Part shown: positions 51,928 through 62,536 of the stretch, one piece after another
How the letters are laid out: each line of letters starts with the position of its first letter
Numbering within the stretch: position 1 is the stretch's first letter
DNA from: Catalinimonas alkaloidigena
GTDB taxonomy: Bacteria; Bacteroidota; Bacteroidia; Cytophagales; Flexibacteraceae
Reading direction: 5' to 3'
DNA length: 64,000 bases
Assembly: GCF_900100765.1 (NCBI RefSeq)
Contig: NZ_FNFO01000009.1
Span: 1 to 64,000, forward strand
Made by a program: the position numbers and the translations under genes
The notes under the pieces: model-generated
Told to the model about the DNA's origin: nothing
Database searches by the model: none
Seen by the model: the letters and a program-made list of their open reading frames with translations, nothing else

Positions 51928-52674
51928 TTACAACTGTTGCCCTACGTGCTTTCCCAGTTGGGTGACAAACCCCAGAAACTTCTGAAAATCCGGATCGGAC
52001 AGGGCTTTCAACAGCCCCAGCGGGCCTACACTGCGTGGCGGCGCTTGTTTTGTCTGCCGGTAGGCTGCCGCCAGCATAGCCATAAGTTGTAAACCGTCGT
52101 CGGCCAGGGCATGCGGGTCGAGTCCCCGGTCCTGTAACGTCCGGATAGAATCGTCCACCTGATCGACTGCGAAACTCATCAGTTCATCGGCCTGTGCCGT
52201 CAGGGCCACCAGGGCTTCGGCTTTTTCCAGCACCAGCGGCGCGGTGGCCTGCACGACCAACGCCTGCAGGCGTTTAAGCCGGTCTTCCAGGTCAATGCCA
52301 CGGTCGGCCGCCTGATCGGCCCAGGTGTCGGTCAGGTCCACCAGGTGTGCCACCAGCTCAGGCGACTGGTCGGCGACCTGCAGCAGCGTCTGGAGGTGGT
52401 GCAGGGTGTGGGAGCGGGTCAGGCGCTCCAGCAACAACAACGCTTGCCGGGTGTTCTCTTCCGGGTCCTGTCCCTGTTCCTGTTGTCGGGCGGCGTACGC
52501 ATCCAGCAGATCGGTGGCGGTGGCCATCGCATCCGGCACGGGACTCATCACGTGTGCGAGCTGCTGCAACGTCTGCTCCATCGTTTCCAGCTTGGCGAGA
52601 ATCGTCTCCAGCGTTGCTGCCGACGGTTGGGTCGGTGTGCTGCGTTGGGTCGGGGGCGGTGAGTAGGTGCTCAT
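51928..52674 (-). CDS. DUF1641-type helical protein partnered with SQR
   Basis: The 248-residue protein is helical, with no membrane segment or cysteine. It has a proline/threonine-rich start, a coiled-coil segment (LETILAKLETMEQTLQQLAH) and a C-terminal VGPLGLLKALSDPDFQKFLGF stretch, which matches DUF1641 proteins commonly encoded beside SQR-like flavoproteins or formate dehydrogenases. Only 12 bp separate it from the sqr stop, so it is cotranscribed. A membrane-tethering or quinone-access helper role for SQR is a guess. Confidence 0.75.
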   Translation of the reverse strand: MSTYSPPPTQRSTPTQPSAATLETILAKLETMEQTLQQLAHVMSPVPDAMATATDLLDAYAARQQEQGQDPEENTRQALLLLERLTRSHTLHHLQTLLQVADQSPELVAHLVDLTDTWADQAADRGIDLEDRLKRLQALVVQATAPLVLEKAEALVALTAQADELMSFAVDQVDDSIRTLQDRGLDPHALADDGLQLMAMLAAAYRQTKQAPPRSVGPLGLLKALSDPDFQKFLGFVTQLGKHVGQQL

Positions 52675-52686
52675 GGCGTAAGGGGG

Positions 52687-53883
52687 TTAAGCGGTTCCTT
52701 TCAGAATTTTGTTCCAGTACATCCAGGGGAGCACTCGCTTCTTGAGTTGGTACATGCTGAAGCGTTCGCGGGCCTGATCGAACGGAAAGCTTTCCTGCGG
52801 CTCGTGGTTGTAGTCAAATTCGGCCAGAATCAGACGGCCGATGCCGGTCACCAGCGGGCACGACCCGTAGCCGTTGTAGGTGGCAGGCAGGGACCGATGC
52901 TGTAGTGCCGCCAGCAGGTTTTCGACCACCACCGGGGCTTGCTTGCGGACGGCCGCCCCGGTTTTGGCGTTGGGCGTGTTGGTAGCGTCGCCCAAACCGA
53001 ACACGTTGTCGTAGTGGCGGTGCCGCAGTGTATGCGGGTCAACGTCGATCCAACCGGCCGCGTCGGCCAGCGGGCTTTCGCGCACAAAGTCCGGCGCGCT
53101 TTGCGGCGGGGTGACGTGAATCATGTCGAACGATTTGGTCACTTCGGTAGTATGGCCCTGGCGATCGGTTACCTTAAAAACGACCTTTTTCTGGGGTCCG
53201 TCGATGCTGATCAGGTCGTGCCGGAAAAACAGGTGAATTCCGTAACGCGCCACCACCTTTTCGAGGGCCGCCGCGTATTTCTTGACGCCGAACAGCATGC
53301 CGCCGGCCGTGCAGAACTCCACGCGGGTCTGTTTCAGGATGCCGCGCCGCTTAAAGTGGTCGCTGGACAGGTACATGACCTTTTGTGGCGCGCCCCCGCA
53401 TTTGACCGGCGTGCCGGGGCTGGTAAACAGGGCCGTGCCCCCCTTGAAGTTGCGTACGGTCTCCCAGGTGTAGCTGCACTGGTCGACGGCGTAGTTGCTG
53501 CACACGCCGTTTTTGCCCAGCGTTTCGGGCAGGCCTTTGATCTGCCCCCAGTTCAGCTGAATGCCCGGGCAAACCACCAGATAATCGTAGGTAAGTATAC
53601 CGCTGGTGGCCGTTTCGACCTGGTTCTGGTCCGGCACAAACGCCACGGCCCGGTCGCGAATCCACACGGCCCGCTCGGGCATCACCTCGGCTTCGGTCCG
53701 GATGGTGTCTTCCAGGGCAAATTCGCCGCCGCCGACCAGCGTCCAGGCAGGTTGGTAATAATGTTTGTCGGAGGGCTCGACGATGGCGAGCGTCAGGTTC
53801 GGATCTTTGCGCAGAAGTTGCGCAGCGACCGAAATGCCCGCGTTGCCGCCGCCCACAATAAGAATCTGAAAATGAGTGTCCAT
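52687..53883 (-). CDS. sqr: Sulfide:quinone oxidoreductase (SQOR-like)
   Basis: This 398-residue FAD enzyme oxidises sulfide and passes electrons to quinone. It has the FAD-binding ILIVGGGNAGISVA start, and two cysteines placed as in mitochondrial-type (type II) SQR: C162 in PVKCGGAPQK and C342 in YGSCPLVTG. The C-terminal stretch (RVLPWMYWNKIL) could bind the membrane. The frame is open to a TTG at 53922, but the ATG at 53883 gives the family N-terminus and a leader downstream of the predicted promoter. It is divergent from the Crp/Fnr gene and shares one operator with it. The product is probably a thiol persulfide, feeding the MBL-rhodanese enzymes. Confidence 0.9.
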   Translation of the reverse strand: MDTHFQILIVGGGNAGISVAAQLLRKDPNLTLAIVEPSDKHYYQPAWTLVGGGEFALEDTIRTEAEVMPERAVWIRDRAVAFVPDQNQVETATSGILTYDYLVVCPGIQLNWGQIKGLPETLGKNGVCSNYAVDQCSYTWETVRNFKGGTALFTSPGTPVKCGGAPQKVMYLSSDHFKRRGILKQTRVEFCTAGGMLFGVKKYAAALEKVVARYGIHLFFRHDLISIDGPQKKVVFKVTDRQGHTTEVTKSFDMIHVTPPQSAPDFVRESPLADAAGWIDVDPHTLRHRHYDNVFGLGDATNTPNAKTGAAVRKQAPVVVENLLAALQHRSLPATYNGYGSCPLVTGIGRLILAEFDYNHEPQESFPFDQARERFSMYQLKKRVLPWMYWNKILKGTA

Positions 53884-53918: not shown

Positions 53919-53992
53919 CCAAGGTGGGCGATTTGAGAGTACAATACCGTAACTTTTGTCACAGATGACGATGATCCTTCTTCGTATTTCTG
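53919..53992. promoter_or_regulatory. Divergent sqr / crp promoter region with one central operator
   Basis: The operator CGTAA-CTTTTG-TCACA (53948-53963) lies in the middle. Exactly 29.5 bp to the right of its centre begins TATTTCTG (53985-53992), a -7 box for the regulator gene. Exactly 29.5 bp to the left, on the minus strand, begins CACCTTGG (53926-53919) for sqr. The same site can thus contact both polymerases at about -41. Confidence 0.65.
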
Positions 53993-54023: not shown

Positions 54024-54653
54024 ATGCACGAAAACGTAACGAACATTCTGCACAGCCTTCAATTCGAAGAACGACTGATCGAAGAGATGATGAAGGTAGG
54101 ACGCCTCAAAAAAGTCAAAGAAGGCGCGTATGTCATTGCCCCCGGTGGCCAGGCCCGCGAAATTCCGATGGTGATCGAAGGCACCCTGAAGGTGATGCGC
54201 CAGGCGCCCGACGCCGGCGAGCTGTTTCTCTACTACCTGGAGGGAGGCGAAACCTGTGCCATGTCGATCACCTGCTGCCTGGAGCACAAAAAGAGCGAGT
54301 TTAGCGCCATCGCCGAAGAAGACAGCCTCCTGTGGATGATCCCGGTACAGGAGTTGGACGGCTGGATTACCAAGTACGAGTCGTTCCGGAAGTTTGTGTT
54401 CCGCTCGTATCAGGCGCGCTTCGACGAACTGTTGCAAGCCATTGACGCGATGGCCTTTCTGAAACTGGACGAGCGGCTGTTCAAGTACCTGCTCGACAAA
54501 AAACAGGCGTCCGGTTCTTTCGTCATCCACAAAACCCACGAGCAGATTGCCAACGAACTCAACTCGTCGCGCGTGGTGATTTCCCGCCTGTTGAAACGAC
54601 TGGAACAGGAAGGGAAAATTGAGCAGCACCGCAACCGCATCGAAGTGCTCTGA
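54024..54653 (+). CDS. Crp/Fnr-family transcription regulator with cysteine-containing sensor domain
   Basis: The 209-residue protein has an N-terminal cyclic-nucleotide-binding-like barrel, a long dimer helix (about 110-140) and a C-terminal winged helix (HEQIANELNSSRVVISRLLK, from 170). The recognition helix ends S-R as in FNR but lacks FNR's glutamate. There are no N-terminal cysteines, so no FNR-type iron-sulfur cluster is expected. Instead three cysteines, C78, C84 and C85, lie in GETCAMSITCC, where cNMP contacts would be, which suggests thiol or persulfide sensing (inference). It is divergent from sqr and likely autoregulated. It is the only regulator gene in the sulfur island. Confidence 0.9.
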   Translation: MHENVTNILHSLQFEERLIEEMMKVGRLKKVKEGAYVIAPGGQAREIPMVIEGTLKVMRQAPDAGELFLYYLEGGETCAMSITCCLEHKKSEFSAIAEEDSLLWMIPVQELDGWITKYESFRKFVFRSYQARFDELLQAIDAMAFLKLDERLFKYLLDKKQASGSFVIHKTHEQIANELNSSRVVISRLLKRLEQEGKIEQHRNRIEVL

Positions 54654-54689: not shown

Positions 54690-54734
54690 TGTGACCAAGG
54701 TTACACTCTTCCGCAAAGAGGCTGCCTACTTTTG
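54690..54734 (+). promoter_or_regulatory. Crp/Fnr-type operator and -7 box of the yeeE-tsdA operon
   Basis: TGTGA-CCAAGG-TTACA (54690-54705) is a near-perfect palindrome, extended by G and C on the outside. TACTTTTG (54727-54734) matches TAnnTTTG exactly and starts 29.5 bp from the operator centre. The ATG follows at 54761. Confidence 0.72.
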
Positions 54735-54760
54735 ATCTCAAATTGAAGCAGTTTATTCGT

Positions 54761-55336
54761 ATGGAGGAGATCGTAGCTTTTTTGAGTCAACCCTGGCCCT
54801 GGTATGTGGCCGGACCAGTGATTGCCCTGGTGATGGGGCTCCTGATTTATTTTGGAAATAACCTGGGCGTATCGGCCAATTTCAGAACCATTTGTGCCAT
54901 GACGGGCGGGGGCAAGAGCTGTAGTTTCTTTGCCTTTGAGTGGCGTCAGCAGGTGTGGAATCTGGTCTTTGCGGCCGGTGCCCTCGGCGGTGGGTTCATC
55001 GCACACCAGTACCTGATGCCAGACGCTGCCGTGCACATCAGCGAAGCGACCAAGCACGAGCTGGCCGCGTACGGCATTGCCGACGCCGGGCAAAACCTGC
55101 TGCCGCAGTCCATCTACAACTGGGAAACGCTGCTGAGCCTCAAGGGGCTCGTCATCATCGTGTTGGGCGGATTTCTGGTCGGGTTCGGTACGCGCTACGC
55201 GGGGGGATGCACTTCGGGGCACGCCATCAGCGGGTTGAGCGATCTGCAACTGCCTTCGCTCATTGCCGTCGCCGGTTTCTTTATCGGAGGCTTGCTGATG
55301 ACCTATCTGGTGCTGCCGTATCTGCTGGCACTTTGA
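54761..55336 (+). CDS. YeeE/YedE-like transporter half, N-terminal type
   Basis: The 191-residue membrane protein has about four or five helices and the conserved signature [14 protein letters not shown], with the cysteine that in YeeE/TsuA-type thiosulfate transporters contacts the substrate. A second conserved cysteine-bearing stretch, [14 protein letters not shown], lies near residue 45. Full-length YeeE is about 350 residues; here the function is split over this and the next gene. The ATG at 54761 is preferred over TTG 54743, which is too close to the promoter. Confidence 0.85.
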
Positions 55337-55382: not shown

Positions 55383-55799
55383 ATGATGAAATACCTTAAA
55401 TACCTGGCGGTCGGGCTGTTGTTCGGCATTACCCTGACCAAAGCAGAAATCATTTCCTGGTACCGGATTTACGAAATGTTTCGGTTCCAGTCGTTCCACA
55501 TGTACGGCGTCATCGGGTCGGCCATCGTGCTGGGCATTGTGTTCACACAGTGGATCAAACGCCGGCAGGTCAAGTCGCTCTACAGCCACCCCATTCACAT
55601 TGCGCCGAAGCAGTTCAGCGTGCCGCGTTACCTGATCGGCGGGACCATTTTTGGTCTGGGTTGGGCCATGACGGGCGCCTGCCCCGGCCCGATGTTCATC
55701 CTGGTCGGCAACGGCTTCGCCGTCATTCTGGTGGCCATTGCGGCTGCCGTTTTGGGGACGTACGTCTACGGCCTGGTGCGCGACAAATTACCCCATTAA
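55383..55799 (+). CDS. YeeE/YedE-like transporter half (DUF6691 type)
   Basis: The 138-residue membrane protein has four helices and the second YeeE-type motif GWAMTGACPGPMFILVG. It follows the first half by 46 bp. In many Bacteroidota this pair is found with a TSUP permease and MBL-rhodanese proteins, as here. The two halves probably form one channel-like transporter for thiosulfate or a related sulfur compound. Two start codons (55383, 55386) are possible. Confidence 0.85.
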   Translation: MMKYLKYLAVGLLFGITLTKAEIISWYRIYEMFRFQSFHMYGVIGSAIVLGIVFTQWIKRRQVKSLYSHPIHIAPKQFSVPRYLIGGTIFGLGWAMTGACPGPMFILVGNGFAVILVAIAAAVLGTYVYGLVRDKLPH

Positions 55800-55805
55800 T
55801 GCGCT

Positions 55806-56885
55806 ATGGAAGAGCTGGCAAAAAAAGCCCGGTTGCTGATGGGCATCGTAATGACCCTGGCGGGTGTGGTGGTCGTGTTGTTCGTCACGCTGATCGCCTA
55901 CCACCTGAATCCGGCGGCCTTTCGTGCCTCGCCCGTAGCTGAAAACGGATCGACTCCGGAAGCATCAGCGCCTGTGGCTACGGTTCCCACGGCGGCAGTA
56001 TGGCATCCGCGGTCGATAGAAACGGACCTGCCGGCGGGCGAACGGGGCAAACAAATCCGGTACGGCTACCAGCTGATTTCTGAAACGCCCCGGTGGCTCG
56101 GTCCCCATGCGGATGAGCCCGCTTTGCGGCTGGCTGGAAACGAATTGGCGTGTAAAAACTGCCACCTGGGAGCCGGTACCAAAGCCGGCGCGATTTCGTT
56201 CGTGGGGGTGGCGCAACGCTTTCCGCAGTTTCGCGGACGCGAGGGAAAAATGGGCACGCTGGAAGATCGCATCAACGGGTGCATGGAACGCAGCATGAAC
56301 GGCCAGGAACTCCCGACGCAGTCGGCAGAGATGCAAGCGATGGTGGCCTACATCCAATGGCTGAGCGAAGACGTGCCCGAAGCAAAGCTAGCCGAATACA
56401 AAGGCCTGCCGGCCTTCGAAATTCCGGCCATCAAAGCCGACACGGTGCAGGGCAAGGCGATCTACGAAGCGCAGTGCCAGGCGTGCCATGGTACGCACGG
56501 CGAAGGAATTCGCCAGCCGGGCGGCGGGGCCGGCTATCTGTATCCGCCGCTCTGGGGCGCGGATTCGTACAACCACGGAGCCGGGATGCGCCGTGTGCTG
56601 ACGGCGGCCCCGTTCATCAAAGCCAACATGCCGTTTGGGGTAAGCTGGGAAAATCCGCGCCTGACCGACGAGGAAGCGTTGCACGTGGCGGCCTACATCA
56701 ACCACTTTGAGCGACCCCACAAAGCCAACACGGCCGAAGACTTTCCGGATAAGAAACTGAAACCGGTTTCTACACCCTATGGTCCCTGGGAGGACCCCTT
56801 CCCGGCCGAACAACACCAGTACGGCCCATTCCCGCCCATCGTTGACTATTATCAGAAGACCTTTGCGCTCAAAAAGACCAATTAG
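55806..56885 (+). CDS. tsdA: Membrane-anchored dihaem thiosulfate dehydrogenase (TsdA-like)
   Basis: TsdA joins two thiosulfates to tetrathionate in the periplasm. The 359-residue protein has an N-terminal membrane anchor (about 10-32), and two c-type haem sites, CKNCH (116-120) and CQACH (224-228). Between them lies TLEDRINGCMERSMNG with C159, which matches the unusual cysteine haem ligand of TsdA. NMPFG (about 278) may give a distal ligand for haem 2. Known TsdA proteins are usually soluble, so the anchor may link it to a membrane electron acceptor. It follows the transporter halves by 6 bp and overlaps the porin gene. Confidence 0.88.
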   Translation: MEELAKKARLLMGIVMTLAGVVVVLFVTLIAYHLNPAAFRASPVAENGSTPEASAPVATVPTAAVWHPRSIETDLPAGERGKQIRYGYQLISETPRWLGPHADEPALRLAGNELACKNCHLGAGTKAGAISFVGVAQRFPQFRGREGKMGTLEDRINGCMERSMNGQELPTQSAEMQAMVAYIQWLSEDVPEAKLAEYKGLPAFEIPAIKADTVQGKAIYEAQCQACHGTHGEGIRQPGGGAGYLYPPLWGADSYNHGAGMRRVLTAAPFIKANMPFGVSWENPRLTDEEALHVAAYINHFERPHKANTAEDFPDKKLKPVSTPYGPWEDPFPAEQHQYGPFPPIVDYYQKTFALKKTN

Positions 56886-58227
56886 CCGGATCGGCCTGGC
56901 CCTCTTGTTAGGCGTGATGCTGCCGTGGACCGTGCACGCCCAGTCCGATTCGGTGCAGTCCCGGGGCGACGTCTCCGGGCAGTGGCGGACCTATTTTATG
57001 AGCACGCTGAATCAGGGCGACCTAAAGGATTTTGCGGCCCTGGCGACCGGAGGAAAGCTGAAGTACGTGCATCGGTGGGGCACCCATCTGGAAGCGGCGG
57101 CGGCTTTCTACACGGCGGTGAACCTGGGCATCAGTGACCCGACCGCCACCGACCCCGCCACCGGAAGGCCCAGCCGCTACGAAGCGGGCTTGTTCAACAT
57201 GCAGGACCTGTCGCAGCGCGAAGTGGCCTTGCTCGGCGAAGCCTACCTAACGCTACGGTACAACCGCCATGCGCTGACCCTCGGCCGCATGAAGCTGGTC
57301 TCGCCGCTGTTCAATCCGCAGGACGGACGCATGATTCCCACGTTGCTCCAGGGCCTTTGGTACGCCCAACGGCCCGACAAAGCCTTGGATCTGGGGGCAG
57401 GTGTGTTCACAAAAGTGGCTCCCCGCGGAACGGACCGGTTCTATGGCATCGGCGAAAGCATCGGGGTCTATCCGGCCGGGCGGAACCTGACCGGAGCGCC
57501 CAGCGACTACCCGATGCATACGCGGAGTAAGTTCCTGGCCATCGGCCATGCGCACTGGAAGCCGATGCCGCACGGCGAAGTGCACGTCTGGGACTACTGG
57601 GCCGACAACGTTTTTCATACGGTGTACCTGGAGCCGGCCTATACCGTCACCCTGGGCGAGCACGCCTGGCAACTGGCAGGGCAGTGGGTGCATCAGGATC
57701 GGGTGGGCGAGGGCGGCAATGCCGACCCAGTCCGGCGCTACTTCGCCTCCCGGACGGCCGACGTGTTCGGCGTGCAACTCCAGGTCAAAGGCACCACAAC
57801 CGTGCGGCTGGGCTACAACCGAATTACCGGTGCCGGGCAGTTCCTGTTTCCGCGCGAATGGGGGCGCGAAGGGCTGTATACATTCCAGAAACGCGAGCGG
57901 AGCGAAGGCAACGCTAATGCCGATGCGCTCGTGCTGACCCTGGACCGTACCTGGAAGGGGCAGGCCGGATCGCTACAGGGCATCGTGTCGGCGGGGCACC
58001 ACTGGCGGGCGTCGGTCACCGAGGCGGCAGCGAACAAATACGCTCAGCCCAGCTACACCCACCTCAACCTTGATCTGTTCTACACCCCGGCCGCACTCCG
58101 ACGGCTTCAAACCGAGCTGCTCTTGACCTACAAAATCGGGCAGGGGGACATTCCCGAAAATCCGGCTTTTGTGCTGAATAAAGTAGACATGGGGCTGATC
58201 AATCTGATCGTGAACTATACGTTTTGA
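56863..58227 (+). CDS. Outer-membrane porin-like beta-barrel protein
   Basis: This roughly 454-residue protein has a signal peptide (RIGLALLLGVMLPWTVHAQS), many alternating beta-strands and ends in LINLIVNYTF, an outer-membrane barrel C-terminus. Segments such as RYEAGLFNMQDLSQREVALLGEA resemble the OprD/porin group. There is no ATG at the signal peptide. The best start is a TTG at 56863, inside the end of tsdA (23-bp overlap); another TTG at 56842 and an ATG at 56779 are possible. Its place at the end of the transporter-tsdA operon suggests it lets thiosulfate or tetrathionate cross the outer membrane. Confidence 0.78.
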   Translation: MRSKRPISRIGLALLLGVMLPWTVHAQSDSVQSRGDVSGQWRTYFMSTLNQGDLKDFAALATGGKLKYVHRWGTHLEAAAAFYTAVNLGISDPTATDPATGRPSRYEAGLFNMQDLSQREVALLGEAYLTLRYNRHALTLGRMKLVSPLFNPQDGRMIPTLLQGLWYAQRPDKALDLGAGVFTKVAPRGTDRFYGIGESIGVYPAGRNLTGAPSDYPMHTRSKFLAIGHAHWKPMPHGEVHVWDYWADNVFHTVYLEPAYTVTLGEHAWQLAGQWVHQDRVGEGGNADPVRRYFASRTADVFGVQLQVKGTTTVRLGYNRITGAGQFLFPREWGREGLYTFQKRERSEGNANADALVLTLDRTWKGQAGSLQGIVSAGHHWRASVTEAAANKYAQPSYTHLNLDLFYTPAALRRLQTELLLTYKIGQGDIPENPAFVLNKVDMGLINLIVNYTF

Positions 58228-58273: not shown

Positions 58274-58340
58274 GATGAGGCAAATCACCACGGTTGGTAA
58301 CGAGCGTTACAGCCCAACGGGCCTTTTTGGATGTACTTTG
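58274..58340 (+). promoter_or_regulatory. Tandem Crp/Fnr-type operators and -7 box of MBL-rhodanese gene
   Basis: GATGA-GGCAAA-TCACC (58274-58289) and GGTAA-CGAGCG-TTACA (58296-58311) are centred exactly 22 bp apart. The -7 box GTACTTTG (58333-58340) keeps TTTG at the same place and starts 29.5 bp from the second centre. The ATG is at 58367. Confidence 0.65.
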
Positions 58341-58366: not shown

Positions 58367-59773
58367 ATGAAAGTACAACAATTGTATACCGGATGCCTGG
58401 CAGAAGCTGCCTACTATATTTCGTCGGAGGGCGAAGCCGCCATCATCGATCCCTTGCGCGACCCGACCCCGTACCTGGAAATGGCCCGCGCCGACGGGGC
58501 CACCATCAAGTACGTTTTAGAGACGCACTTTCACGCGGACTTTGTGTCCGGGCACCTCGACCTGGCGAGGAAAACCGGCGCGCAAATCGTGTATGGCCCT
58601 ACGGCACTGCCCGATTTTGAGGCGCACGTCGCCACCGACGGCGAGGTGCTGCCGCTGGGCAAAGTCCAGATCAAAGTACTACACACACCCGGCCATACCC
58701 TGGAGTCGGTAACGTACCTGTTGCTCGACGAAGCGGGCCGCGAGGTCGCCATCTTTACGGGTGATACCCTCTTCATCGGCGACGTGGGACGCCCCGACCT
58801 GGCCGTAAAGACCGACCTGACGCGCGAAGATTTGGCGGGCCACCTCTACGACTCGCTGCGTCATAAAATCATGCCTTTGCCCGACGGCGTTATCGTCTAC
58901 CCGGGGCACGGGGCGGGTTCGGCCTGCGGCAAGAACATGAGCAAAGAAACCGTCGATACGCTGGGCCATCAGAAACAGGTCAACTACGCGCTGCAGGCCG
59001 ACCTGTCGCGCCGAGCGTTCATGGCTGCGGTTACGGCCGATCTGGTCGCGCCACCGCAGTACTTTCCGCAAAATGCCATGCTGAACCGCAAAGGATACGA
59101 CAGCCTGGAGAGCGTGCTGAAGAAAGGCTTGAACGCGCTGGACGTGGCGACCTTTGTGCGGCATCGTGCCCATTACGACACGCTGGTGCTCGACACCCGC
59201 AGCAAAGAAGCCTTTGCGCAGGCGCACATTCCCGGTTCCCTCTTTCTGGGCCTCGACGACAACTTCGCCTCCTGGGCGGGGGCGCTGATCCCCGACCTGC
59301 AACAACCGCTGGTCTTTATCGCGGACGCAGGACGGGAGGAAGAGGTGGTGACCCGTCTGTCGCGCGTCGGACACGACAATACGCTGGGCTACCTGAAAGG
59401 CGGCCTCGTTAGCTGGCAGAACGCCGGCTACGCCACGGATCGCATCGACGAAACAACCGCCGCCGCGTTTGCCCAGCACTACCACGAGGGCATGCAGTTG
59501 CTGGACGTCCGCAAGGCAAGCGAATACCAGTCGCAGCACGTGGCCGGGGCAAGGAACGTTCCGCTCGCTTCCATCTTCCAGTCCCTGACGCAACTCGACC
59601 CGTCCGCGACCTATTACCTCCACTGCCAGGGCGGGTACCGCTCCATGGTGGCCGCCTCGATCCTCCGAGCCAAATGCTTTGGCCACGTCGTCAACATCAC
59701 AGGCGGTTTTAACGCGCTGCGACAGACCGCCGTGCCGCTCACGGCCTACCACGAGCCGGTCACGCAGTTATAA
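58367..59773 (+). CDS. CstB-like persulfide dioxygenase / rhodanese fusion (copy 2)
   Basis: The 468-residue protein has an MBL domain with ETHFHADFVSGH, TPGHT and FTGDTL (iron ligands), then a rhodanese-like domain (VLDTRSKEAFAQAH) whose loop reads IADAGREEE with no cysteine, and a C-terminal rhodanese with YLHCQGGYRSM. It should oxidise a persulfide to sulfite and combine it with sulfane sulfur to thiosulfate, as shown for staphylococcal CstB. It is more distant from the other two copies. The ATG at 58367 starts the family N-terminus; earlier in-frame codons overlap the promoter. It has its own promoter and terminator. Confidence 0.88.
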   Translation: MKVQQLYTGCLAEAAYYISSEGEAAIIDPLRDPTPYLEMARADGATIKYVLETHFHADFVSGHLDLARKTGAQIVYGPTALPDFEAHVATDGEVLPLGKVQIKVLHTPGHTLESVTYLLLDEAGREVAIFTGDTLFIGDVGRPDLAVKTDLTREDLAGHLYDSLRHKIMPLPDGVIVYPGHGAGSACGKNMSKETVDTLGHQKQVNYALQADLSRRAFMAAVTADLVAPPQYFPQNAMLNRKGYDSLESVLKKGLNALDVATFVRHRAHYDTLVLDTRSKEAFAQAHIPGSLFLGLDDNFASWAGALIPDLQQPLVFIADAGREEEVVTRLSRVGHDNTLGYLKGGLVSWQNAGYATDRIDETTAAAFAQHYHEGMQLLDVRKASEYQSQHVAGARNVPLASIFQSLTQLDPSATYYLHCQGGYRSMVAASILRAKCFGHVVNITGGFNALRQTAVPLTAYHEPVTQL

Positions 59774-59853: not shown

Positions 59854-59898
59854 TGTAACTTAAGTCACGCCACCCGGCAGGCGCACCCTCTACCTTTG
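59854..59898 (+). promoter_or_regulatory. Crp/Fnr-type operator and -7 box of TSUP gene
   Basis: TGTAA-CTTAAG-TCACG (59854-59869); TACCTTTG (59891-59898) matches the -7 consensus exactly and starts 29.5 bp from the operator centre. The ATG is at 59932. Confidence 0.72.
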
Positions 59899-59931: not shown

Positions 59932-60753
59932 ATGTCGCTACTTGAGATAACAGGCTACGTCGGGGCGGCGCTGATTGGCATTTCCTTAGGGCTGATCGGC
60001 AGCGGAGGTTCCATCCTGACCGTACCGGTGCTGGTGTACCTGATTCACGTCGAGCCGGTGCTGGCCACGGCCTACTCGCTCTTTGTGGTGGGCATCTCGG
60101 CACTGGTGGGGGGCATCAATTATGCCCGGAAGCACCTGGTCAGTTACAAAACCGCGCTGGTGTTTATGGTACCCGCCTTCGTGACGGTCTACCTGACGCG
60201 CCTGTGGTTGGTGCCCATGCTACCGGCTACGTGGCTCACGATCGGAAGCTTTGCGCTGACCAAGGATGTTGGCATCCTGGTGCTGTTCGCCTTGTTGATG
60301 CTATTCGCTTCCGTAGGCATGATCCGCAACGGCAAAAGTGCACAGACCGACACGACAGACGAGGCCCAGCCGCGTTTCAACTTCCCGATGATTTTGCTCG
60401 AAGGGGCGGTGGTCGGCGTGCTGACGGGGCTGGTGGGCGCAGGCGGAGGCTTTCTGATCATCCCGGCGCTGGTGTTGCTGGCGCGGTTGCCCATGAAAAT
60501 GGCCGTCGGTACCTCGCTGTTCATCATCGCCGCGAAATCGCTGATCGGGTTCCTCGGCGACATCCAGGCCGACCAGCCCATCGACTGGGGGTTTCTGCTG
60601 GTATTCTCGGCCATTGCGGCCTCCGGCATCTTTCTCGGCGGGTATCTGTCCAACTTCATCAACGGCAAAAAACTCCAGAAAAGCTTTGGGTGGTTTGTGC
60701 TGGCGATGGGCCTGTTCATGATCGTCAAGGAACTCTTCCTGCCGGGCGTGTAG
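59932..60753 (+). CDS. TSUP (TauE/SafE) family permease, likely sulfite or sulfur-compound exporter
   Basis: The 273-residue membrane protein has about eight helices in two halves, with the glycine-rich family repeats GISLGLIGSGGSILTVPVLVYL (first half, abbreviated here as GLIGSGGSILTVP) and GVLTGLVGAGGGFLIIPAL (second half). TSUP proteins move sulfite, sulfoacetate or related anions across the inner membrane. In this setting export of sulfite made by the persulfide dioxygenases is likely. It has its own promoter with a Crp/Fnr-type operator. Confidence 0.88.
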   Translation: MSLLEITGYVGAALIGISLGLIGSGGSILTVPVLVYLIHVEPVLATAYSLFVVGISALVGGINYARKHLVSYKTALVFMVPAFVTVYLTRLWLVPMLPATWLTIGSFALTKDVGILVLFALLMLFASVGMIRNGKSAQTDTTDEAQPRFNFPMILLEGAVVGVLTGLVGAGGGFLIIPALVLLARLPMKMAVGTSLFIIAAKSLIGFLGDIQADQPIDWGFLLVFSAIAASGIFLGGYLSNFINGKKLQKSFGWFVLAMGLFMIVKELFLPGV

Positions 60754-60798
60754 TGTAACTCGGGTTACAAACGCACCCCTTCCAAGCCCGTACTTTTG
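60754..60798 (+). promoter_or_regulatory. Crp/Fnr-type operator and -7 box of second MBL-rhodanese operon
   Basis: TGTAA-CTCGGG-TTACA (60754-60769) is the most symmetric site in the window and begins on the base right after the TSUP stop codon. TACTTTTG (60791-60798) starts 29.5 bp from its centre. The ATG is at 60847. Confidence 0.75.
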
Positions 60799-60846: not shown

Positions 60847-62187
60847 ATGAAAATAGAACAGATTTATGATAAAGCCCTGGCACACGGCTCGTATGCCATT
60901 GTCAGCGAAGGGCAGGTGGCCCTGGTAGATCCGGGTCGCGACCCGCAGCCCTACCTCGACTTTGCCGAAAAACACCACGGTACCATTGTGGCCGTGTTCG
61001 AGACCCACCCGCACGCCGACTTTGCCAGTAGCCACCTGGAGTTTCAGCAACGGTTCGGCGCCACCGTCTACATCAATCCGAAAGTCGGGGTGTCGTACCC
61101 CTTCCTTCCGCTGCAACACGGCGACGAAGTGCGCATCGGGAAGGTAACGTTCCGTGCCCTGTTTACACCCGGTCACTCGCCCGACCACAACGCCTACCTG
61201 TTGCTCGACGAAGCTGGCAAGCCACATGCGGTCTTCACCGGCGACTCGCTGTTTGTGGGCGACGTCGGACGACCCGATTTGCGCGAAGGCGCAGGCCACG
61301 TAAAGGCCAACCGCAAGGAGCTGGCCGGCATGATGTACGACACGGTCAACACCGTGTTTGCTCCCCTGCCCGACGACGTGCTGGTCTATCCGGCCCACGG
61401 CGCAGGGTCGCTCTGCGGCAAAAACATGAGCACCGAACTCTACAGCACCATCGGGCAGCAAAAGGAGGAAAACTGGGCGTTCCACGTTAAAGAGAAGCAG
61501 GCGTTTGTCGAGAGTTTCCTCGACGGGCAACCGTTCATTCCCAAGTACTTCCCCTACGACGTGGAGCTGAACCGCAAAGGGGCCGATCCGCTGGCCGAGA
61601 GCATTGAGCGGGTGCCGCGACTGGCTTCGGCCGAAGCCCTGGAAAAAGGGGTGCTGATTGTCGATACCCGAAATCAGGAGGCGTTCAAGGCGGGGCATCT
61701 GAACGGCGCACTCAACATCCAGAACAAAGAAGGCGATAAATTCGAAACGTGGCTGGGCGCGCTCGTAAGCCCGACCGAATCGTTTTACCTCGTTGCCGAA
61801 GACGAAGAGGCGCTGGCAGCCGCGATTGTCCGTGCGGCCAAAATCGGCTACGAAAAGCTGATCAAAGGAGCACTCGTCAACCCGGCACAGGCCCCGGTGA
61901 AAAGTGACCGCCTGGACCTGAACGAGTTCAAGGCGCATCCGGAGCGCTACACCATCGTGGACATTCGCAACCAGTCGGAAGTCGCGACCGGTAAGATTTT
62001 CGATAGCGCCGTGGAGATTCCGCTGCCGGAATTACGCGACCGCAGCGGCGAACTGGCGACCGACAAGCCCATTGTGGTGCACTGTGCCGGGGGGTATCGG
62101 TCGGCGGCCGGAGCCAGCATCCTGGAACGCAAGCTGGCCGGAGCCACGGTATACGATTTGAGTGAAGCAGTGAAAGAATTTAAATAA
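60847..62187 (+). CDS. CstB-like persulfide dioxygenase / rhodanese fusion (copy 3)
   Basis: The 446-residue protein has an MBL domain (ETHPHADFASSH, TPGHS, FTGDSL), a middle rhodanese-like domain without cysteine (VDTRNQEAFKAGH; loop LVAEDEEALA) and a C-terminal rhodanese with VHCAGGYRSA. It is very like the copy at 38494. A TTG at 60796 in the same frame is part of the -7 box, so the ATG at 60847 is the real start. A small rhodanese follows after 13 bp, with a good ribosome binding site. Confidence 0.88.
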   Translation: MKIEQIYDKALAHGSYAIVSEGQVALVDPGRDPQPYLDFAEKHHGTIVAVFETHPHADFASSHLEFQQRFGATVYINPKVGVSYPFLPLQHGDEVRIGKVTFRALFTPGHSPDHNAYLLLDEAGKPHAVFTGDSLFVGDVGRPDLREGAGHVKANRKELAGMMYDTVNTVFAPLPDDVLVYPAHGAGSLCGKNMSTELYSTIGQQKEENWAFHVKEKQAFVESFLDGQPFIPKYFPYDVELNRKGADPLAESIERVPRLASAEALEKGVLIVDTRNQEAFKAGHLNGALNIQNKEGDKFETWLGALVSPTESFYLVAEDEEALAAAIVRAAKIGYEKLIKGALVNPAQAPVKSDRLDLNEFKAHPERYTIVDIRNQSEVATGKIFDSAVEIPLPELRDRSGELATDKPIVVHCAGGYRSAAGASILERKLAGATVYDLSEAVKEFK

Positions 62188-62200
62188 GAAGGGAGGCAAT

Positions 62201-62536
62201 ATGTTTGGTTTTAGCAAGCAAGTGAAAAATTTCGAAGATGTAGACGCCGCAACGTTTGAGGCATTGCGTCAGGAGGGAAAGGCCGTGGTGTTGGACGTGC
62301 GCACACCGGCCGAGGCACAACAGGGAATGATTCCCGGTGCCAAGCTCCTCAATGTGATGTCGCCTTCGTTTCAGAACGAGGTGCAGCGGTTCGATAAGTC
62401 CGTGCCTTACCTGGTGTACTGCCGCAGCGGGAACCGGAGCGCGCAGGCGTGCCAGTGGATGGCCGATCAGGGCTTTCAGAAAGTCTTCAACCTACGCGGG
62501 GGCATAGGCGCCTGGCAGCATGCGGTTGGGAAGTAA
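62201..62536 (+). CDS. Single-domain rhodanese
   Basis: The 111-residue rhodanese has an active-site loop YCRSGNRSA with one cysteine and the closing signature FNLRGGIGAW. It carries sulfane sulfur between persulfide donors and acceptors such as sulfite. No signal peptide is present, so it is cytoplasmic. AGGGAGG lies about 6 nt before the ATG, one of few clear Shine-Dalgarno sequences here. It is cotranscribed with the MBL-rhodanese gene and closed by a terminator. Confidence 0.92.
   Translation: MFGFSKQVKNFEDVDAATFEALRQEGKAVVLDVRTPAEAQQGMIPGAKLLNVMSPSFQNEVQRFDKSVPYLVYCRSGNRSAQACQWMADQGFQKVFNLRGGIGAWQHAVGK

Follow-up and report, generated by a model that had tools for sequence, protein, structure and literature searches.

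A Crp-type regulator with an invariant barrel cysteine as a candidate persulfide sensor of sulfane-sulfur genes in Catalinimonas alkaloidigena

The analysed stretch of the Catalinimonas alkaloidigena genome (positions 1 to 64,000 of contig NZ_FNFO01000009.1; these 64,000 nucleotides as a whole are called the window) encodes a Crp/Fnr regulator amid sulfur genes. The best overall explanation, which we consider reasonably probable, is that this protein represents a Crp-type class II activator of a sulfane-sulfur regulon, sensing persulfide through the cysteine C78. Sequence evidence supports the regulator itself, its predicted operators, their spacing, the invariance of C78 and the regulon, the assignment of which is well supported; the sign of regulation, persulfide as the signal, the role of R132 and the use of C84 and C85 are what we infer from them. 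As a persulfide sensor of a new class, the regulator is a strong candidate, though an unproven one. Its gene and neighbours are as follows (window positions):

51928–52674, minus strand: DUF1641 protein, behind sqr (PF07849)
52687–53883, minus strand: sulfide:quinone reductase (SQR), type III-like, inferred start MDTHFQ (NCBIfam type III SQR, 2.6e-65, below the cut-off; Pyr_redox_2)
54024–54653, plus strand: Crp/Fnr regulator gene with C78, C84 and C85 (Pfam cNMP_binding and HTH_Crp_2, AF2 model, 122 homologues)
54255–54278, plus strand: codons C78 to C85 (C-x5-C-C), nucleotide-cassette region of the barrel (sequence and conservation)
54570–54608, plus strand: predicted recognition helix RVVISRLLKRLEQ, residues 183–195, V184 type (AF2 helix 183–195; covariation of V/E184 with the operator half-site)
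54761–55336, plus strand: YeeE/PmpA-like half-transporter, the ORF opening at 54743 (Sulf_transp, 1.4e-14)
55383–55799, plus strand: DUF6691 YeeE/PmpB-like half-transporter (DUF6691, 1e-10)
55806–56885, plus strand: SoxA/TsdA-like dihaem cytochrome c (SoxA-TsdA_cyt-c and Cytochrom_C)
56779–58227, plus strand: OprD-like porin, start uncertain, the ORF overlapping the cytochrome (PF03573, 2.3e-9)
58367–59773, plus strand: MBL-fold/rhodanese protein 1, persulfide dioxygenase-like, inferred start MKVQQL (Lactamase_B and two Rhodanese stretches)
59932–60753, plus strand: TauE/SafE sulfite exporter (PF01925, 3e-40)
60847–62187, plus strand: MBL-fold/rhodanese protein 2, inferred start MKIEQI (sequence; homology to MBL-rhodanese)
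62201–62536, plus strand: single-domain rhodanese (sequence; homology search)

The assignments by Pfam, NCBIfam, sequence and homology bear out the first-pass annotation, according to which the neighbouring genes handle sulfide, persulfide or thiosulfate. No CsoR/CstR-type gene (PF02583) was found in the C. alkaloidigena genome, and an Rfam scan of the window gave no match.

The regulator is a real ORF of 209 amino acids, in which an N-terminal cNMP-type barrel and a C-terminal Crp winged helix were recognised by Pfam (cNMP_binding at 29–115 and HTH_Crp_2 at 150–209, both above the cut-offs), by an AlphaFold2 (AF2) model and by Foldseek, the matches of which (Thermus CAP, Eubacterium rectale 3dv8, MtbCRP, NtcA, CprK and DNR) are all of the Crp fold. 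Pfam found Crp domains only, with neither an ArsR or CsoR fold nor a sigma-54 AAA+ domain of the FisR kind, and the score against the cAMP-CRP equivalog model was 37.5 bits, below the cut-off of 266. C78, C84 and C85 are the only cysteines of the protein, so that N-terminal cluster-ligating cysteines of the FNR type are absent, as had been noted earlier. In the AF2 model, built from 44 homologues (mean pLDDT 92, pTM 0.71), they are placed in a region of the barrel that is the counterpart of the cyclic-nucleotide cassette of CRP, with C78 immediately N-terminal of a predicted short helix (79–87) bearing C84 and C85; the earlier placement of all three in the cyclic-nucleotide loop agrees with both sequence and model.

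The alignment comprised 122 homologous loci, nearly all from Bacteroidota (searches of 296 genomes at phylum level and 241 at order level), including one true homologue from a single-sequence contig scan and the window itself. C78 is kept in 122/122 homologues, down to about 29% identity, and also in those from Pseudomonadota and Firmicutes, while 20 further Crp/Fnr regulators of these genomes, taken as controls and two residues shorter at this point of the alignment, have no equivalent (0/20). The cysteine pattern is therefore not a matter of chance, and a conserved sensor-domain cysteine, characteristic of persulfide sensors, would be represented by C78. R132, Y70 and F145 are also family-invariant, being rare or absent in the 20 controls.

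The other two cysteines behave differently from C78: C84 is present in 74 and absent in 48 homologues, several of the latter sharing the gene context of the window, and C85 is present in 64 of the 122. In a tree for which columns 84 and 85 were omitted, the states CCC, CCx and Cxx require six changes, with few independent pairs available for relating the C84 state to sulfur context. The window regulator sits in an all-CCC clade of 13, and a Cxx clade of 35 proteins contains a subclade of 11, nine of which occur in the same sulfur context; in this subclade, which still neighbours TauE, MBL-rhodanese and YeeE genes, 10/11 members have no cysteine other than C78. The alphaproteobacterial and Thiothrix homologues (about 27–30% identity) possess C78-x5-C84 without C85, and the C78–C84 pair is retained in the window regulator and in the Pseudomonadota homologues aligned. 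Taken together with the C78-only clade, these homologues suggest that C-x5-C is probably the ancestral motif, in which only C78 is indispensable, and that C85 is an addition of the Bacteroidota; the conserved element would then be either C78 alone or C78 and C84 as an ancestral pair. Since the C78-only clade has the same gene context, a C78–C84 tetrasulfide cannot be the universal mechanism, and with C84 lost so often the family as a whole has no conserved pair or triad able to bridge sulfur.

The strict C-x5-C-C triad, proposed by the first-pass annotation as the sensing unit, is thus ruled out by the C78-only clade, which lost C84 and C85 while remaining linked to sulfur genes. The expectation that the cysteines would be conserved among orthologues in sulfur context held for C78, found in every aligned homologue, and failed for C84 and C85, which are missing beside TauE, MBL-rhodanese and YeeE genes.

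Linkage was counted with profiles made from the genes of the window, for sulfur genes within 6.5 kb of crp. At least one such gene lies near 82/122 homologous loci and at least two types near 53/122, a single type being present at 29 of the 82 linked loci; by cysteine state, at least one is found at 51/60 CCC, 12/14 CCx and 19/48 Cxx loci. At the same threshold, 3/20 control Crp loci are linked, two of them only through weak matches to SQR-type flavoproteins. A YgaP-like membrane gene occurs near five further homologous loci and near none of the controls. The 35/122 loci remaining have neither a sulfur nor a YgaP-like gene nearby, and the flanks of regulators without sulfur neighbours have no common theme apart from YgaP-like proteins. 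Many of the C78-only regulators in the Cxx clade of 35 (e.g., L095, L105, L093 and L103) belong to those with neither neighbour. Among Firmicutes, Pusillibacter (L221) and PDB 3dv8 keep C-x5-C, and the next gene in Pusillibacter encodes a NifB/NifX-like, non-sulfur protein.

Several sulfur-linked loci are carried by plasmids, as in Pontibacter akesuensis and in Spirosoma linguale, where the order is crp-TauE-MBL-YeeE-YeeE. On plasmids of Ruegeria, Paracoccus, Thioclava, Pseudosulfitobacter and Chelativorans, crp is followed by DUF2892, YeeE, DUF6691, MBL, sulfur-transferase and SulP genes, and most Pseudomonadota loci read contain, with gene-by-gene variation, an operon of the crp-DUF2892-YeeE-DUF6691-MBL-SulP type; the record of Thioclava GXIMD4215 stops after DUF2892, and in Thiothrix DUF2892 alone stands behind crp. 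In Paracoccus and Chelativorans, peroxiredoxin and cytochrome bd genes lie beside crp.

A palindrome, TGTRACN4GTYACA, was spotted by eye as common to 54690–54705 and 53948–53963, and five predicted operators with fixed spacing precede genes of the window cluster:

53948–53963, plus strand: predicted operator 1, CGTAACTTTTGTCACA, between sqr and crp; -7-like TATTTCTG at 53985–53992
54690–54705, plus strand: predicted operator 2, TGTGACCAAGGTTACA, before the yeeE genes; -7 box TACTTTTG at 54727–54734, a perfect composite match
58296–58311, plus strand: predicted operator 3, GGTAACGAGCGTTACA, before MBL-rhodanese 1; TTTG at the same offset, 58337–58340
59854–59869, plus strand: predicted operator 4, TGTAACTTAAGTCACG, before tauE; -7 box TACCTTTG at 59891–59898
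60754–60769, plus strand: predicted operator 5, TGTAACTCGGGTTACA, before MBL-rhodanese 2; -7 box TACTTTTG at 60791–60798, a perfect composite match

Putative operators are thus found before sqr, rhodanese and persulfide dioxygenase genes, and the earlier tie between a cysteine-bearing Crp and sulfane-sulfur genes is strengthened by predicted operators of its own, although its other half, sensing by the triad, did not survive. Three perfect sites exist in the 7.1-Mb genome, at 54690, at 60754 and in a paralogous sulfur locus (contig C2). Allowing one mismatch raises the number to 22, of which the window cluster has five and the paralogous locus three; the reversed pattern, used as a control, gives 27. 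The enrichment in sulfur loci, calculated with the two motif-founding sites left out, has a P of about 7e-11, which, as all p-values given here, is only indicative because the loci are related by descent.

At all eight sulfur-locus sites, read towards the gene, TTTG (TCTG in one) starts at +41 counted from the first palindrome base, and it mostly belongs to the Bacteroidota -7 box TAnnTTTG. Among palindromes with at most one mismatch in the 122 loci, 44 have TTTG at +41, any other offset from 20 to 65 having at most five. The operator centre precedes the -7 box by about 33 bp, which puts it near -41, and the operator overlaps the position that a -33 box would take. From established knowledge of CRP and of Bacteroidota promoters, this arrangement would correspond to the geometry of class II CRP activation, and it is the geometry only that suggests an activator sign of regulation.

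Residue 184 varies together with the half-site over the 122 loci: V184 accompanies TGTAAC in 41 cases and TGTGAC in 7, E184 in 11 and 25, respectively (Fisher 3e-7). The pairing of E184 with TGTGAC has the direction expected from the Glu181 contact of CRP. This covariation argues that the predicted operators are used by the Crp regulator itself and not by a bystander.

In Pseudomonadota, GTGACN3GTCAC (at most one mismatch) occurs in the gap behind crp, between crp and DUF2892, at 9/9 loci scanned. Its spacer (L214–L219 and L222–L224) is one base shorter than that of Bacteroidota and CRP. A second perfect GTGACN3GTCAC (L215:5407 and L219:5407) has the peroxiredoxin gene on one side and the Rrf2-crp genes on the other, a hint that the regulon may extend to peroxiredoxin and cytochrome bd.

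A blind scan of the C. alkaloidigena genome with the composite pattern palindrome-N21-TAnnTTTG (at most two mismatches) revealed nine sites, seven of them in the two sulfur loci. The eighth (C6:204972-205016) stands directly before a YgaP-like_TM/DUF2892 gene (C6:204723-205016, L187), which is the sole member of its family in the 7.1 Mb, is unlinked to either sulfur locus and belongs to the same family as the gene behind crp in most Pseudomonadota loci read. The ninth (C16:19422-19466, L189), with two mismatches, lies upstream of a TlpA-like thioredoxin gene, which may be a regulon member, but the site could be due to chance.

The paralogous sulfur locus of the same genome (C2:470658-483242, L104) has its own Crp, with C78, C84 and E184, together with MBL-rhodaneses, TauE and a split YeeE; its three predicted operators match those of the window in geometry. 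Hybrid half-sites point to cross-talk between the two regulators, and the paralogue may bind the same operators as the window regulator. The MBL-rhodanese-like protein directly behind the paralogous Crp (L104:4392-5708) looks divergent from the other two.

We suppose that the regulator dimer would bind TGTRACN4GTYACA, centred at about -41, and recruit RNA polymerase to promoters having a -7 box and no room for a separate -33 box. The regulon would include sqr, the split YeeE transporter, the MBL-rhodanese persulfide dioxygenases, tauE and the unlinked YgaP-like gene, and sulfane sulfur is the signal that appears most consistent with it. The barrel presumably does not sense cAMP; instead, C78, which lies on an insertion of the nucleotide cassette peculiar to this family, is the likely receptor of the signal and would be modified by cellular persulfide or polysulfide generated by SQR and the rhodaneses. 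R132, which in an alignment by hand pairs with Arg123 of the cAMP pocket of CRP, is the likely partner of C78: the C78 persulfide would occupy the place of the phosphate of cAMP near this invariant arginine of the dimer helix and switch the dimer to the DNA-binding state. In the clade of the window, the persulfide would probably be passed on to, or bridged with, C84/C85, and these two cysteines may tune or lock the signal. Tentatively, and with somewhat less than even confidence, one can suggest a broader statement, namely that Crp activators of an undescribed subfamily, widespread in Bacteroidota and in Alpha- and Gammaproteobacteria, form a group that senses sulfane sulfur via the single invariant C78, its persulfide being a covalent stand-in for the cAMP phosphate.

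The same regulator and regulon might instead answer a gas (NO, CO, H2S or O2) through haem, with C78 as the axial ligand. In the CO sensor CooA, a weak phmmer match to the regulator (1ft9), C75 is such a ligand and occupies that same part of the barrel, and a single invariant cysteine, as the C78-only clade has it, suits a haem ligand better than a two-cysteine switch. This is nevertheless unlikely, since the second residue after C78 is variable (M, I, L, V, S, H or F), the His position of CooA is not conserved, the sensor barrel showed no invariant His (H172, which is invariant, belongs to the DNA-binding domain) and the linked genes are those of sulfane sulfur, not of gas metabolism. Cysteine-based switching does exist in the Crp/Fnr family (CprK), and the peroxiredoxin and cytochrome bd genes by crp in Paracoccus and Chelativorans would suit a classical thiol redox switch, with peroxide, disulfide stress or O2 acting on C78 and C84/C85 and with other targets besides the sulfur genes. 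We hold it to be rather unlikely, because seven of the nine composite sites fall in sulfur loci, the other two preceding the YgaP-like and TlpA-like genes, and because an intramolecular disulfide is impossible in the C78-only clade.

Non-covalent binding of a small sulfur anion (thiosulfate, tetrathionate or sulfite) by R132 and Y70, with C78 as a structural residue, would agree with the invariance of these two residues in the family and their absence from most control Crps, and YeeE-type transporters supply thiosulfate (PMC11073785). We find it decidedly unlikely: complete invariance of C78 while C84 and C85 drift is unexpected for a buried structural cysteine. The clustering of the three cysteines also brings to mind an [Fe-S] cluster held by C78, C84, C85 and a fourth ligand, which is highly improbable given that C84 is missing in 48/122 homologues, several with the same gene context. 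Persulfide sensing through C78 remains our preferred reading.

Sulfide oxidation is widespread in heterotrophic Bacteroidota and marine roseobacters, and the palindrome-N21-TAnnTTTG pattern offers a ready-made, genome-readable marker of the regulon. The replacement of cAMP by a covalent cysteine persulfide would be a possible new chemistry of the best-studied activator fold.

The novelty claimed earlier for a Crp-type persulfide sensor is upheld as far as the open-access literature goes, in which we found none; some queries probably miss “Crp/Fnr”, and subscription papers and preprints lie mostly outside the search. In the literature searched, no regulator of sulfide oxidation in Bacteroidota was found either. 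CstR of the CsoR family controls sqr, pdo, rhodanese and TauE-type genes, so its targets are like those of the window regulator, while its fold is different. CooA, which binds CO and a haem with Cys, His and N-terminal Pro ligands, and CprK, which binds chlorophenols and is under cysteine-based redox control, share the Crp fold, and the sensor cysteine of CooA lies in the same region as C78, but neither controls sulfur genes. The nearest solved relative by sequence, 3dv8 (Crp/Fnr, E. rectale), for which no published function was found, ranks third in the fold search with the regulator model and keeps C-x5-C without a third cysteine.

The Crp of Acinetobacter baumannii is persulfidated in cells, but it is an orthodox cAMP-type protein whose cysteine lies opposite the ligand pocket, and no sensor role is demonstrated for it (PMC7315123). 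FisR of Cupriavidus, a sigma-54 activator of sulfide-oxidizing genes, forms disulfide and tetrasulfide cross-links between its three cysteines on exposure to RSS (PMC9774590); both it and the window regulator have three cysteines and are associated with the same kind of genes, although FisR is an NtrC-type AAA+ protein and the window regulator a Crp with one cysteine universal in its family. In the ArsR family, SqrR, BigR, SoxR, sHdrR and YgaV control sulfur-oxidation genes through two conserved cysteines that bridge sulfane sulfur (PMC12423496). These are ArsR-fold repressors released by sulfur, whereas the window regulator has the Crp fold and a predicted activator geometry, and the one-cysteine mechanism proposed for C78 would be distinct from the tetrasulfide bridges of SqrR and SoxR.
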